This document shows positions 44,169-63,970 of a DNA stretch of 64,000 bases, piece by piece. Location: positions 124,001 through 188,000 of the forward strand of contig NZ_JAAZQQ010000005.1 of the NCBI RefSeq assembly GCF_012395815.1, given 5' to 3'. A model generated the notes under the pieces. That model was given only the letters and a program-made list of their open reading frames with translations, ran no database searches and was not told the DNA's origin. The stretch is from Roseicyclus persicicus (GTDB taxonomy: Bacteria > Pseudomonadota > Alphaproteobacteria > Rhodobacterales > Rhodobacteraceae). Position numbers and translations under genes: made by a program. The first letter of the stretch is position 1. Every line of letters starts with the position of its first letter.

Positions 44169-46021
44169 ATGGTGAAATCGGCTGCGAAAAAGGCCTCGAA
44201 CCTCTTCGTCTGGCTGATCCTCGGGCTTCTGTTCGTGGCGCTGGCGGGCTTCGGCATCGGCTCCTTCTCGGGCGGCGGCAGCCGGGTGGGCGAGGTCGGC
44301 GACGTCGAGATCACCGCCGAGCAATACGCCCGCGCCCTCGACCAGGAGATCCGCGCCCGCATCGCCCAGACCGGCCAGCCGGTGACGCTCGCCACGCTGC
44401 GGGCGCAGGGTATCGACCAGGCGGTGCTGAGTTCGCTGGTGGCGCGCGCGGCCCTGGCCCACGAGGCACAGGGCATGGGCCTGTCGGTGGGCGACGCCGA
44501 GGTCGCGCGCCAGATCACCCAGATCGAGGCGTTCCAGGGCCTCGACGGCGCCTTCGACCGGGAGAGCTACGAGTTCACCCTGCGCCAGAGCGGGCTCGAC
44601 CCCGCCGATTTCGAGGCCGACGTGCGCGCCGACACCGCGCGGAGCCTCCTGCAGCTGGCCGTCGTCGGCGGGCTCCGGCCCGACGTGACGCTGACCGAGA
44701 CGCTGGTCGCCTACCAGGGCGAGACCCGCGACTTCAGCCTGCTGACGATCACCGAGGGCAGCCTGCCCACCGGCCTGCCCGCCCCCACCGACGCCGAGCT
44801 CGAGGCCTACTACACCGACAACCCGCAGCGCTTCACCCGCCCCGAGGCGCGGCGCATCACCTATGCCTGGGTCACGCCGTCGATGCTGATGGACAGCGTG
44901 CCGGTGGACGCGGCGGCGCTGCGCGCGCTGTACGAGGAGCGCGCGAACCTCTACCGCCAGCCCGAGCGCCGGCTGCTGGAGCGGCTGGTGTTCCCCGACG
45001 CCGCCGCGGCCCAGGCGGCCTATGATGCCATCATCGCCGGCGACACCGACTTCGACGCGCTGGTCGCCGAACGCGGCCTGACGCTGGAGGACGTGGACCT
45101 GGGCGAGGTGGCCCGCGGCGACCTGGCGCCCGAGGCGGCCGAGGCGGTGTTTTCCGACACCGAGAGCGAGATCATCGGCCCGGTGCAGTCGGCGCTGGGG
45201 CCCGCGCTGTTCCGGGTGAACGCGGTGCTCGACGCGAGCGAGGTCAGCTTCGAGGAGGCCGAGGAGGAACTGCGCGCCGAGCTTGCCTCCGAGGCGGCAC
45301 GGCGGGTGATCGACGACCTGCGCGACCCGGTCGACGACCTGCTCGCCGGCGGCGCGACGCTGGAGGAGCTGGCGGCCTCGACCGAGATGGTGCTGGGCCA
45401 GATCGACTACACCCCGGTGTCCGAGGCGGGCATCGCGGGCTACGACGCCTTCCGCGAGGCCGCGCAGGCGGCGCAGGAGGGGGATTTCCCCGAGCTTCTG
45501 GAGCTGAGCGACGGCGGCCTGTTCGCGATCCGGCTGGACGAGCTGGTGCCCCCCACCCTGCCCCCGCTGGCCGAGATCCGCGACGAGGTCGCCGAGGCCT
45601 GGCGCGCCACCGCCCTGCGCGAGCAATTGGCCGCCCGCGGCGAGGCGCTGGTCGCGCAGCTGGCGACGGGGCTGGCCTTCGAGGATCTCGGCCGCGTCGA
45701 GACCGAGCGGCAGGTGCGCCGGCAGGACTTCATCCCCGACGCGCCGCCGACCCTGGTGGCGCAGGTCTACCAGTTGGCCGCCCCCGGCGACGTGGTGCTG
45801 GTGCCGGGCGCCGAGGTGGCGATCATCGCGCGGCTCGACCGCATCAACGCCGCCGCGCGGGACGACGCCAGCGTGCAGATCCTGACCCAGATCTTCGAGC
45901 AGACCGTGGCGCAGTCGATCGCGCAGGACCTGTTCGAGGCCTATGGCCAGGCGGTGCAGGCCGAGGCGGGCATCCGGCTCGACCAGTCGATGATCAACGC
46001 CGTGCACGCGACCTTCCCCTG

Positions 46022-46022
<1 letters not shown>
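44169..46022 (+). CDS. ppiD: Peptidyl-prolyl isomerase PpiD/SurA-type chaperone
   Basis: A 617-residue inner-membrane anchored periplasmic chaperone. A single N-terminal helix (about residues 12-36, LFVWLILGLLFVALAGFGIG) is followed by SurA_N-like sequence (ITAEQYARALDQEIRARIAQ and GLSVGDAEVARQITQI) and a PPIC-type rotamase region in the middle (YRQPERRLLERLVFPDAAAA to LGPALFRVNAVLD). It helps fold outer-membrane proteins. ATG at 44169 was chosen because AGGAAGGA lies upstream with good spacing; a GTG three bases earlier is possible. trpE starts at the last base of its stop codon. Confidence 0.9.
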
Positions 46023-47533
<1,511 letters not shown>

Positions 47534-47538
47534 GGGCG

Positions 47539-47654
47539 GCGAAAATCACGTGATTTTCGCACGGGAAACCTCGAGGTTTCCCGTGCGTTTTCCTCGAGGA
47601 AAACGACGCCGAAAAACTGCAGTTTTTCGGATGGGAAAACTGCAGTTTTCCCAT
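47539..47654. repeat. Array of five consecutive perfect palindromes
   Basis: Between convergent trpE and yibQ-like genes there are five adjacent perfect palindromes: 47539-47560 (22 bp, centre CACGTG), 47558-47587 (30 bp, CTCGAG), 47586-47605 (20 bp, CTCGAG), 47609-47630 (22 bp, CTGCAG) and 47631-47654 (24 bp, CTGCAG). Each has GC-rich ends, A or T tracts of three to five and a self-complementary hexamer centre. Together they fill the gap. Probably bidirectional transcription stops, but the array is more than one terminator needs. A related array lies at 63855-63922. Confidence 0.9.
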
Positions 47655-47671
47655 ACCTGGCGGAAACCGCC

Positions 47672-49306
47672 CTACTCGGCCAACCTGAGCAGCACGGCTG
47701 ATACCGGCGCCAGCGCCACGCCTTCGGTGCGCCCGCCGAGCGCCCAGGAAAACAGCGCCGTCACCGTGTCGGGCCGGGTGCGGCCGACCACCACCGCTGC
47801 CCCCTCCTGCCCCGCGGCAAAGGCCGCCCGGCCAAGAAAGCGCGTGATCACCGGCGCGCTCTGGTCCTCGTCGTCGAGGAGCCGGAACACCGTCGCCGCG
47901 GGCAGGCCGTTGCGCCGCGCGGTCTCCTCGCCGGGGTTCAGGCCGCGCGGGAAGGCCAGCAGGCCGTGGCCGGTCTCGGCCAGCGCGGCCACCGTCGCGT
48001 CGAGCACCGGGCGGTCGCCCTGGATGCGGCCCTCGGGGTCGTCCATCAGCGCCACCGCCTGCGGCAGGGCGGTCTGCGCGGCGGCGAGCGCCACCTCGAC
48101 GTCGGACGGGGTGGCGCCGGCCGGAATCGCCCCGGCGCCGAGGATCACCACCTCGAACCCCGCGGCCCGGAGCTCGGCGGCACGGGCGGCGGCATCGGGG
48201 CGCAGCGGGTCGAGCGCGAAGCTGACCGGAAAGCCCAGCCCGGCCAGCGTGGCGGCGTCGAGGCCGCCCTCGGGCGTGTCGATCAGCACGACGGCAAGCA
48301 GCGCCTGGTCGGCCGGCGCGTCGAAGGGCACGGCATTGTCCCGCAGGGCGCGCGGCGCGGCGGGTGCGGGCGGGGCGGCGGCCTCGGCCACGGGCGGCGG
48401 CGGCTCGGGCGTGCCCGTCTGCGGCAGGCGCGTGCTGCCGGGGCTTGCCACCTGCGGCAGGCGCGGGGCCGGGGCGGCGGCCACGGCCTCGGGCATCGCG
48501 GGGGCGGTCACTTGCGGCAGGCGCGACGTCGCGGTCGCCTCCCCGGTCGGGGCCTCGGTTGCGGCGCCGACCTGCGGCAGGCGAGGCGCGGGGGCCGGGT
48601 CAGGGGCCGGGTCGGGCGCGGGGGCCGCGGCGACGGGGGCCGGGGCCGGCGGCGCGGTGTCGATGGCGGCGGGTGCGTCGGCGGGCTGAGGGACGGTCAG
48701 GCGGCGCGGCGCGGCGCCCCCGGCGCTGGCGTCGGCGGTGCTGCTGAAGCTGGGGCTCGGGGCCGGGGCCGGCTCGGGGCGCGGCGGCTGCGGCGCGGCG
48801 GCGACGACGGGCGTGGGCGCGGGGGCCGTTTCGGGGGCGGGGGGCGGCGTCTCGGCCTCGGCGGCGGAGGCCACGGGCGGCACCGAGGCCGGGGCGGCGT
48901 CGACCTGGGGCAGGCGCGCCGGGGCCTCGGGCGCGGCGGAGGTCGCGGGCAGCGCGGCGGGGGCCGGGGCGATGGCGGGCGCCTCCTCGGCCGCGGCCTC
49001 GTCGGCGGGTTCGGGCGACGGGGTCGGCTCCGGCTCCGGCTCGGGCGCAGGCGGCGGCTCGGGCGTCGCTGCGGCCGGGGGTTCCGGCGCGGGGGGCGGC
49101 GCGGGCTCGGGGATCGGCTCGGGCTGGGGCTCGGGCGCGGGCGCCGGCTCGGGCGCGGCGGGCGGTGTCTCCGCCGGGGCCTCAGGCGCCATCGGCGCAG
49201 GCGCATCGGCGCGGTCCGGCAACGGCGTGCTGAGCGAGACCAGCGCCAGAACCAGGGCCGAGACGAACATGCCCCAGACCAGACCCGTCAGAACTCCACG
49301 ACCCAT
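47672..49306 (-). CDS. Divergent polysaccharide deacetylase (YibQ/DUF610) with long Pro/Ala/Glu-rich linker
   Basis: A 544-residue protein. A membrane anchor lies at about residues 4-27 ([20 protein letters not shown]). The next 290 residues are a low-complexity Pro-Ala-Glu linker containing RLPQ five times (RLPQV four times, RLPQT once). The C-terminal 220 residues match the divergent polysaccharide deacetylase family: [38 protein letters not shown] and [10 protein letters not shown]. Such proteins are periplasmic and likely act on envelope polysaccharide; the enzymatic activity is unproven. It is on the strand opposite to trpE and trpG. GAGGG upstream of the ATG fixes the start. Confidence 0.87.
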
Positions 49307-49453
49307 GCTGCCCTCTTTCGCCCCGCCACCCGATGCGCGCCTGTCTTCGGGCGCTTGACCGCCCTGCCCGGCTTTGAAACATGTATAGCCCGGGCGCGCG
49401 CCGCCTTCACCCCTTTTTCCTCCCCTGCGCCCGCGGGCGCGCCGGACACCGCC

Positions 49454-50041
49454 ATGCTGCTCCTCATCGACAACTACGACAGCTTCACCTGGAACCTCGT
49501 CCATTACCTGGGCGAGCTCGGGGCCGAGACGCGGGTCGTGCGCAACGACCAGATCACGGTGCAGGAGGCGCTGGCGCTGGCGCCCGAAGCCATCGTGCTG
49601 TCGCCCGGCCCCTGCGACCCGGCGCAGGCGGGCATCTGCCTGCCCCTGACGCGGGCCGCGGCCGGGGCGGGCGTGCCGCTTCTCGGTGTCTGCCTCGGGC
49701 ACCAGACCATCGGCGAAGCCTTCGGCGGCAAGGTGCAGCGTCACACCGAGATCGTGCACGGCAAGCTGGGCGAGATCCACCACGAGGGCAAGGGCGTCTT
49801 CGCCGGCCTGCCCTCGCCCCTGATGGCGACGCGCTACCATTCGCTGGTCGTCGACCGCCCGAGCCTGCCCGCCGAGCTGGAGGTGACGGCCGAACTGAAG
49901 GACGGCACCATCATGGGGCTGCGCCACCGGACCCTGCCCATAGAGGGCGTGCAGTTCCACCCCGAGAGCATCCGCTCGCAGCACGGGCACCAGATGCTGC
50001 GGACGTTCCTGACCATGGCCAAGGAGGCCGCCCCGGCATGA
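49454..50041 (+). CDS. trpG: Anthranilate synthase component II (glutamine amidotransferase)
   Basis: A 195-residue class I glutamine amidotransferase that supplies ammonia to TrpE. It starts [20 protein letters not shown]; the nucleophile is Cys80 in [17 protein letters not shown], and the His-Glu pair is in [13 protein letters not shown]. Length fits TrpG (or PabA, which can serve both pathways). It is divergent from the YibQ-like gene and begins a tightly coupled run trpG-trpD-trpC-moaC; its stop codon overlaps the trpD start. Confidence 0.95.
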
Positions 50042-60754: not shown

Positions 60755-60802
60755 GCAAGGCTCTTGCAAGAGCCTTGCCAAATCCCTTGCAAGGGATTTG
60801 GC
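60755..60802. repeat. Pair of perfect palindromes sharing a CTTGCAAG centre
   Basis: 60755-60778 (24 bp) and 60777-60802 (26 bp) are two perfect palindromes overlapping by two bases. Both have the centre CTTGCAAG; the arms differ (GCAAGGCT... and GCCAAATCC...). They fill the gap between the nucleoside hydrolase and selO, codirectional genes. As RNA they would form stable hairpins and reduce readthrough. The arrangement resembles the arrays at 47539 and 63855 but the sequence is different. Confidence 0.88.
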
Positions 60803-62290: not shown

Positions 62291-62314
62291 CCCTTCATCT
62301 TTCCCCAAATACGC
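62291..62314 (-). repeat. Dispersed intergenic motif, copy d
   Basis: Directly after the selO stop, on the minus strand, GCGTATTTGGGGAAAGATGA then AGGG: an exact match to the motif core of copies c and e. Confidence 0.75.
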
Positions 62315-62356: not shown

Positions 62357-62378
62357 CGATTTTTCGCACGAAAAATCG
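62357..62378. repeat. Palindrome with CA spacer near the selO 3' end
   Basis: CGATTTTTCG and CGAAAAATCG, perfect 10-bp arms around CA, in the convergent gap between selO and the EamA transporter. The TTTTCGCACG junction also occurs between the first two palindromes at 47539 (ATTTTCGCACGGG), and a TTTTCCGCACGGG variant at 63855, so it is probably a remnant or short member of that family. Confidence 0.75.
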
Positions 62379-63436: not shown

Positions 63437-63850
63437 ATGACCGACACGATCGAGGCGCGCTGCGAGGCCAGGGGCCTTCGGATGACCGACCAGCGCCGGG
63501 TGATCGCCCAGGTGCTGGAGGCCGCGACCGACCACCCGGACGTCGAGGAGCTCTACGCCCGCGCCTCGGCCCGCGACCCGAGGATCTCGATCGCCACGGT
63601 CTACCGCACGGTGAAGCTGTTCGAGGAATCGGGCATCATCGAGCGGCTGGAGTTCGGCGACGGACGCGCGCGCTACGAGGATGCCGACCGCGACCACCAC
63701 GACCACCTGATCGACATGCACACCGGCGAGGTGATCGAGTTCGTCGACCCCGAGATCGAGGCGCTGCAGGAAAGGATCGCGGAAAAGCTCGGCTACCGGC
63801 TCAAGGGCCACCGGCTGGAGCTCTACGGGGTGCCGCTGCGCCGGCGGTGA
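63437..63850 (+). CDS. fur: Fur-family metalloregulator (Fur/Mur type)
   Basis: A 137-residue repressor with the Fur winged helix (GLRMTDQRRVIAQVLEAATD, then ISIATVYRTVKLFEESGIIE) and metal-site motif DRDHHDHLIDMHTGEVIEF with the HHDH ligands. The CxxC pairs of Escherichia coli Fur are absent (LIDMHTG replaces LICLDCG), as in the manganese-responsive Mur/Fur of alphaproteobacteria. It probably controls iron or manganese uptake; which metal is not shown. It is divergent from the EamA gene and followed by palindromes. Confidence 0.9.
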   Translation: MTDTIEARCEARGLRMTDQRRVIAQVLEAATDHPDVEELYARASARDPRISIATVYRTVKLFEESGIIERLEFGDGRARYEDADRDHHDHLIDMHTGEVIEFVDPEIEALQERIAEKLGYRLKGHRLELYGVPLRRR

Positions 63851-63854
63851 GGGG

Positions 63855-63922
63855 GCGGAAAACGCGCGTTTTCCGCACGGGAAACCCCGGGGTTTCCCGG
63901 GGCGTTGTCCTGGAGGAAAGCG
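63855..63922. repeat. Second palindrome array, homologous to that at 47539
   Basis: 63855-63876 (22 bp, centre CGCGCG) and 63878-63899 (22 bp, centre CCCGGG) are perfect palindromes, and 63903-63922 (CGTTGTCCTGGAGGAAAGCG) is an imperfect one. In order and flanks they match the first three elements at 47539-47605: the third differs from CGTTTTCCTCGAGGAAAACG at only three positions, the second shares ACGGGAAACC...GGTTTCCCG. So the two loci are related copies. Confidence 0.85.
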
Positions 63923-63970
63923 CCCGCGCCGGGCGGCCCGCGCGCGCCGTGGCGGGGTCGCTCCCGAAGG

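Follow-up and report, generated by a model that had tools for sequence, protein, structure and literature searches.

Periodic palindrome arrays behind stop codons in Roseicyclus persicicus: a dispersed, probably REP-like repeat family

Why does one gap between two convergent genes hold five different perfect palindromes set back to back? The question arose from a first-pass annotation of the window, by which we mean the whole 64,000-nt stretch of Roseicyclus persicicus DNA that was analysed. A palindrome scan recovered all five exactly as they had been placed and confirmed the hexamers CACGTG, CTCGAG, CTCGAG, CTGCAG and CTGCAG at their centres. The flanking genes also proved to be those proposed, trpE (PF00425/PF04715) on one side and a gene with PF04748, which we take to be the YibQ family, on the other. 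The best match of trpE among named records is in Roseicyclus sp. Amp-Y-6 (92% identity). The parts of the locus are as follows.

46022-47533, plus strand: trpE (anthranilate synthase component I; PF00425/PF04715), stop codon 5 nt before the array
47534-47609, unstranded: module 1, three units; similar three-unit arrays without module 2 at L003, L004 and L005
47539-47560, unstranded: palindrome 1, GCGAAAATCACGTGATTTTCGC, hexamer CACGTG, module 1
47558-47587, unstranded: palindrome 2, core CTCGAG, module 1; recurs as an identical 30-mer at C1:804670-804699 (L003)
47586-47605, unstranded: palindrome 3, core CTCGAG, module 1
47604-47654, unstranded: module 2, two units; without module 1, beside a different third unit, at C3:437459 (L008)
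47609-47630, unstranded: palindrome 4, core CTGCAG, module 2
47631-47654, unstranded: palindrome 5, core CTGCAG, module 2
47659-47671, unstranded: GGCGG-AAA-CCGCC, a small hairpin lying between array and convergent stop codon
47672-49270, minus strand: convergent gene, PF04748 (divergent polysaccharide deacetylase, YibQ-like), start from a codon-usage gene finder

Anatomy and distribution of the arrays

The centres of the five palindromes lie 23, 23, 24 and 23 bp apart, and the array is a mosaic of modules that occur separately elsewhere in the genome. A BLAST search of this 3.71-Mb genome with 47500-47700 gave 101 matches (E <= 10) at dozens of places, and 47534-47656 was matched (E <= 0.001) in 12 of the 13 genomes of the genus, G009 being the exception, and in one of 28 other relatives. 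Three plasmid records were returned for 47400-47800, each aligned over no more than roughly the initial third of the query, and none reaching the array.

For a systematic view we used an 840-kb sample of the genome (C1:1-400000, C6:1-200000 and C3:1-240000), which was picked by position and is not random. An array was called where at least two palindromes of at least 16 bp were adjacent and one of them reached at least 18 bp; genes were called with our own codon-usage finder rather than taken from the public annotation. Arrays hold two to five palindromes. Across 47 array regions (21 from the sample and 26 around BLAST hits, two of these 26 with one perfect palindrome of at least 18 bp), 92 of 105 inter-unit intervals measure 22-23 bp, and the distances between all palindromes of at least 14 bp in the sample peak at 22-23 and at twice 22-23 bp. 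This spacing is constant in both main families, the palindromes themselves ranging from 18 to 30 bp; two minor types, with cores TTCTAGAA and TTCGTACGAA, are spaced at 27-29 bp. Since arrays were seeded by perfect palindromes, the share of perfect units is biased upwards in the 47-region counts and in the 128 of 157 units that are perfect over 18 bp; the tests of B-unit arms, of loops and of pairing in other genera therefore define units by core or stem.

Family A, to which the trpE array belongs, has arms such as GGAAAAC/GTTTTCC around a C-NNNN-G core, and family B has the core CTTGCAAG with arms that vary freely and are perfectly paired. All 27 B units of the 840-kb sample, taken by core and spacing alone, are fully paired at the five core-adjacent arm positions, with 21 distinct arms (0.30-0.87 when shuffled). 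All 13 genus genomes have the pattern GGAAAAC-NNNN-GTTTTCC, at 1 to 55 copies (reversed control 0), and so do six of 120 family genomes, namely our own, G023 with seven copies and four with a single copy and a non-palindromic loop. Paired CTTGCAAG cores are found in five of the 13 genus genomes (69, 36, 35, 35 and 2 pairs; the other eight have 0) and in 21 of 394 family genomes, and both B units are fully paired at 16 of 20 loci from other Rhodobacteraceae genera, scored at one locus per genome. One such genome from another genus, G356, holds 59 CTTGCAAG pairs, and the few places listed are for the most part almost identical in sequence, suggestive of a separate, recent amplification. By eye, L193, L195 and L201 (G348, G053 and G358) carry four-unit arrays with outer TTCGAA and inner TTGCAA cores in symmetric order.

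Further afield, a looser core pattern was matched in 21 of 190 genomes of Alphaproteobacteria including our own, the other 20 at one place each (reversed control 8 of 190), and paired arms were found at none of the 19 places scored among the other alphaproteobacterial CTTGCAAG-type pairs. Viral contigs gave at least 120 stretches with paired CTTGCAAG cores, none of the 120 listed having paired arms, and two matches to a family-A pattern. Of 78 further trpE loci, together 1.5 Mb and mostly Rhodobacteraceae going by their titles, only one shows a clear array, that of Marivita (L072), with spacings of 24 and 23; a GC-rich simple repeat in L058 also yields pairs at 20-23. Beyond the trpE gap, the window itself contains the following.

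60755-60802, unstranded: family-B array of two units with CTTGCAAG cores, flanked by the IU_nuc_hydro gene and selO; none in 7 of 11 genus genomes
62357-62378, unstranded: single near-palindrome with a non-palindromic centre (CGATTTTTCGCACGAAAAATCG)
63855-63899, unstranded: two-unit family-A array, 4 nt past the stop codon of a Fur-family gene (63437-63850)
63902-63923, unstranded: degenerate third unit of the array at 63855

A second dispersed 3'-end element was noticed alongside these, consisting of the motif CATCTTTGCTT or CATCTTTCCCC plus AAATACTCCGGGGG and often followed by a GGGGGC..GCCCCC hairpin. It is seen at 62296, 63979, 59721 and 42816 of the window and in convergent gaps such as C1:85410, C1:173160 and C6:194314, with 24 motif matches in the 840-kb sample and similar strings after trpE in L020 and L032.

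Position at gene ends and turnover among relatives

The 21 arrays of the 840-kb sample comprise 11 in convergent and 10 in codirectional gaps, with none in divergent gaps and none inside genes. When gaps are weighted by length, the probability of 0 of 21 divergent is 0.0016 and that of at least 11 convergent is 3e-6; weighting by gap count gives 0.014 and 7e-5. Of 32 array-flanking gene ends in this sample, 23 lie -5 to 7 nt from the outer palindrome, and eight of the ten codirectional arrays begin within 7 nt past the upstream stop codon, against 2.0 expected for random placement in the same gap (P 5e-5). The question put by the first-pass annotation, whether such arrays sit at gene 3' ends, is answered in the affirmative for this sample, where every array is intergenic, none is divergent and the median distance from the stop codon is 5 nt. 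Family-A units showed no preferred polarity relative to the gene, both orders occurring (by eye).

Samples from other genomes are smaller. In 400 kb sampled from G006 there are six clusters, of which three are convergent and three codirectional; one of the six is a different repeat with a spacing of 38 bp that lies far from stop codons. The 200-kb samples of G005 and G010, with genes called by the codon-usage finder under other training, hold no array and a single cluster with a spacing of 39 bp, respectively. In four other genera, samples around B hits contain six clusters of two and two single palindromes of at least 20 bp, all intergenic. Because these palindromes lie at least 14 nt from the nearest gene boundary, with gene calls that are less sure there (G356 coverage 0.44), the tight 5-nt offset is established for our own genome only. 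At one gene end, a TTCGTACGAA-core array is kept in three species (G006 sample 207111-207166, G010 sample 106467-106526 and, degenerate and by eye, G005), and the species of the window has an unrelated hairpin at that gene end (by eye).

The trpE locus was scored by eye in 11 genus genomes, leaving out G007 (truncated) and G004 (no match). The array is intact in the window's genome, survives as degenerate remnants in two (G005, where the units still stand at 23-bp steps, and G008) and is lacking in eight. With the trpE copy missing or degenerate in 10 of 11 genomes, it is dispensable. It had been argued at the outset that absence from the same locus in close relatives would point to chance or an assembly artefact; the absence is real at trpE (8 of 11), and what it reflects is the gain and loss of a genuine repeat family. 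In L009 (Roseicyclus sp. Amp-Y-6), a four-unit CTTGCAAG array with centres 22-23 bp apart lies upstream of trpE at 1576-1663, and the trpE end is empty.

Two further loci have filled and empty orthologous sites, a mark of transposon-like MITEs. At the DUF58|BatA junction, eight of 12 genomes lack the array and have overlapping stop and start codons (seven ATGA, one TGATG), and four (G000, G003, G004 and G011) have a four-unit B array exactly between stop and start. Both frames are open around the array in our own genome; in the other three array-bearing genomes the DUF58 frame is likewise open, and by eye the sequence from the BatA start runs on as it does in relatives. The gap between the nucleoside hydrolase gene and selO has a two-unit B array in four of 11 genomes and none in seven. 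Over the orthologous arrays of these two loci, 52 of 66 pairs are invariant, eight vary yet pair in every genome and six include a mismatch, which in four cases falls within the outermost two positions. The covariation of arms that the first-pass annotation proposed to test is present in those eight pairs, although the changes are not independent events because the genomes are related. Target-site duplications gave no consistent signal (4 of 47 array regions against 3.2 expected) and a wider test for shared words of at least 8 gave a weak one (7 of 47 against 2.5), with one suggestive case, by eye, at DUF58|BatA. A three-protein FastTree had weak inner support and a misplaced Nioella outgroup, and for this reason gains and losses were not mapped on it. 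In our species and its close relatives, the palindrome arrays show the behaviour of a repeat that inserts, keeps its arms paired and is eventually lost, and the early suggestion of a mobile palindrome fits both the dispersed copies and the filled and empty sites.

Dispersal, 3'-end placement, periodicity, paired arm change and presence or absence between species are direct outcomes of these computations. As to what they amount to, we lean towards reading the trpE array as one copy of a dispersed, REP/BIME-like family of palindrome arrays that would form tandem hairpins at mRNA 3' ends. The arrays could instead be purely selfish, copied by transposition or recombination and tolerated past stop codons as insertion elsewhere is harmful. 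This explanation is helped by the clade-specific B-pair copy numbers given above, by the filled and empty sites and by the decay of the trpE copy in relatives; we consider it unlikely, though still a serious candidate, in view of stem pairs that are kept and change together after insertion and of a placement at stop codons that is tighter than random within the same gap.

Terminators, DNA sites and chance

The first-pass annotation had remarked that one terminator would suffice at a convergent junction, and the array is indeed not just a lone terminator. All the same, arrays might act as tandem bidirectional intrinsic terminators that do without a U-tract or use the T-run of a neighbouring unit. 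Their 3'-end placement, convergent enrichment and stable hairpins agree with such a function, and so do two terminator-like matches at the trpE locus (mean 0.8, sd 1.0 in shuffles), which take the neighbouring unit as their T-rich tail. No U-tract proper follows a GC-rich hairpin at that locus. Tandem and bidirectional intrinsic terminators without a U-trail, U-, X- and I-shaped, were reportedly described by Unniraman and colleagues in 2002, and they resemble the arrays in having adjacent hairpins at convergent gene ends; the arrays differ in their fixed 22-23-bp period, palindromic loops, homologous dispersed copies and occurrence between genes of probable operons.

That last point bears on complete termination. 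Codirectional arrays separate two permease genes at C6:84309, permease and ABC ATPase genes at C1:362933 (an array of a minor type), DUF58 and BatA genes at C1:249478, and genes for a DeoC-family aldolase and an aldehyde dehydrogenase at C1:194773. The genes on either side of these arrays are probably co-transcribed, which makes complete termination unlikely there, and in three of the ten codirectional arrays the next gene starts only 10-23 nt away. The genome also has hairpins with a T-tract at 13 array-less gene ends in the 840-kb sample. As the fixed spacing, the homologous copies at unrelated genes and the palindromic centres would all be left unexplained, we regard terminators as an improbable answer.

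A second alternative places the function in double-stranded DNA, with the arrays as sites for a dimeric protein (or as a supercoil or cruciform sink) at gene ends, dyads being about two helical turns apart. It draws on the 22-23-bp dyad spacing, which stays fixed while palindrome length varies from 18 to 30, on the self-complementary centres, and on the octamer CTTGCAAG, which is common to other genera in which the arms differ. In the 840-kb sample, 61 of 62 array loops (stem of at least 7, any 4-nt loop, a neighbour 20-25 bp away) are self-complementary, the figures for isolated intergenic hairpins and for genic ones being eight of 53 and 14 of 123; among the 157 units seeded by perfect palindromes, 140 central tetramers are. 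Such loops count against an RNA hairpin because an RNA hairpin needs none; a recent expansion from palindromic founders, the dyad of a bound protein or symmetrising repair could each account for them.

Other properties pull towards RNA. The 138-nt array region folds as RNA at -73.5 kcal/mol (z -8.1). Among 41 stem mismatches in the 157 units, 19 fall on the two innermost pairs (P 5e-4), a zone that was searched less strictly; where a unit has just one mismatch, it lies there in 10 of 22 cases. In G011, G005 and G002, a hand count found 44 of 61 loops with intact stems to be self-complementary. That stems outlast loops and the central tetranucleotide favours a hairpin. On the gene strand, the ten stem mismatches of codirectional arrays (four G-T, two A-C) show no clear wobble preference, and Rfam gave no match up to E 1 for 45000-50000 of the window. 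With arms that are free to vary provided they pair, mismatches concentrated at the innermost pairs and divergent gaps of the 840-kb sample that carry no array, we think it rather unlikely that the arrays are protein or supercoil sites.

As for composition, the window has ten palindromes of at least 20 bp, against at most about 0.4 of 20 bp per 64 kb in Markov controls (orders 1, 3 and 5; 30 replicates each), and a 400-kb stretch of the same genome has 51 of at least 18 bp against 12.2 expected, with adjacent pairs averaging 0.0 in five Markov replicates. An origin by chance or as an assembly artefact, to which only the empty or degenerate trpE locus in most relatives scored lends anything, is refuted by these counts, far above the Markov expectation in the window and the 400-kb stretch alike, and by the matches in 12 of 13 genus genomes and in L009, a named contig from the databases, so that we give it practically no weight.

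Known systems and significance of the arrays

Of extragenic palindromes the best known are REP elements, which are linked to RAYT transposases; RAYT-linked REPs and BIMEs have hosts such as E. coli, Pseudomonas, Xanthomonas and Stenotrophomonas, and REPs also occur inside operons. Like REPs and BIMEs, the arrays are dispersed, multi-copy, extragenic and palindromic, form regularly spaced composite units and in many cases lie near stop codons at gene 3' ends. The GT(A/G)G head, by comparison, is present at 6.3% of palindrome ends (eight of 128), and random 10-mers have it in 5.3% of cases. Y1_Tnp (PF01797, the RAYT domain) has no match in any of the 13 genus genomes, controls matching in five of 14, which rules out RAYT/IS200-type mobility in the genus; PF01797 is matched in two of 11 genomes with CTTGCAAG pairs, a set that includes our own. 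The arrays are also mostly perfect to the centre, whereas REPs are imperfect palindromes with a free loop. Excerpts of one study describe REPs by a GT(A/G)G head and an imperfect palindrome, and place RAYTs, by that study's criteria, only in gammaproteobacteria (PMC2817692). Because the head and, in the genus, RAYT are missing, we do not file the arrays as REPs, and the initial impression that no named element fits agrees with their failing the REP marks tested.

Other likenesses are looser. According to excerpts of a survey, bacterial inverted repeats peak at +50 to +80 after stop codons, mainly with 4-5-nt spacers, and are attributed to terminators (PMC13155455); the arrays share perfect inverted repeats after stop codons and differ in having a spacer of 0, an offset of about 5 nt and an arrangement in arrays. 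In giant viruses, as excerpts of another report have it, hairpin-forming palindromes mark transcript 3' ends as a viral polyadenylation signal (PMC4402537), a resemblance at transcript ends for which we claim no relation. Our literature searches found no description of such arrays in titles or abstract openings.

Returning to the reading we lean towards, a possible course of events begins with arrays of two to five perfect palindromes, dyads every 22-23 bp, that sit a few nt past stop codons. Transcription would turn them into tandem hairpins directly at the end of the coding region, almost alike on the two strands. These hairpins may slow 3'-5' decay and hinder ribosomes and polymerase at the stop codon, as E. 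coli REPs do. Ribosome stalling is reported in one paper for REPs that lie no more than 15 nt from a stop codon (PMC12306157). The arrays would then be 3'-end structures rather than obligatory terminators, new copies presumably arising through a copying process that works without a Y1 (RAYT) transposase in the genus, and old copies decaying. A role as 3'-end hairpins, in protection, attenuation or stop-codon stalling, appears favoured on this analogy.

We would further suggest, as a tentative idea that falls short of an even chance, that the arrays represent a new class of mobile repeat. These would be near-symmetric arrays with a 22-23-bp period, copied by a non-RAYT process to sites past stop codons, even splitting overlapping operon genes with both frames kept, and their arms would stay complementary through selection on the hairpin or through strand-symmetrising repair of hairpin or cruciform DNA. 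A REP-like system of strictly periodic arrays placed at stop codons, with no REP head and, in this genus, no RAYT, would mean that repeats of this kind have originated more than once. The filled and empty sites within one operon of sister species are a natural experiment on how translation, transcript ends and stability respond to a hairpin array directly past a stop codon, and the symmetric arms allow selection to be tested against symmetrising repair.
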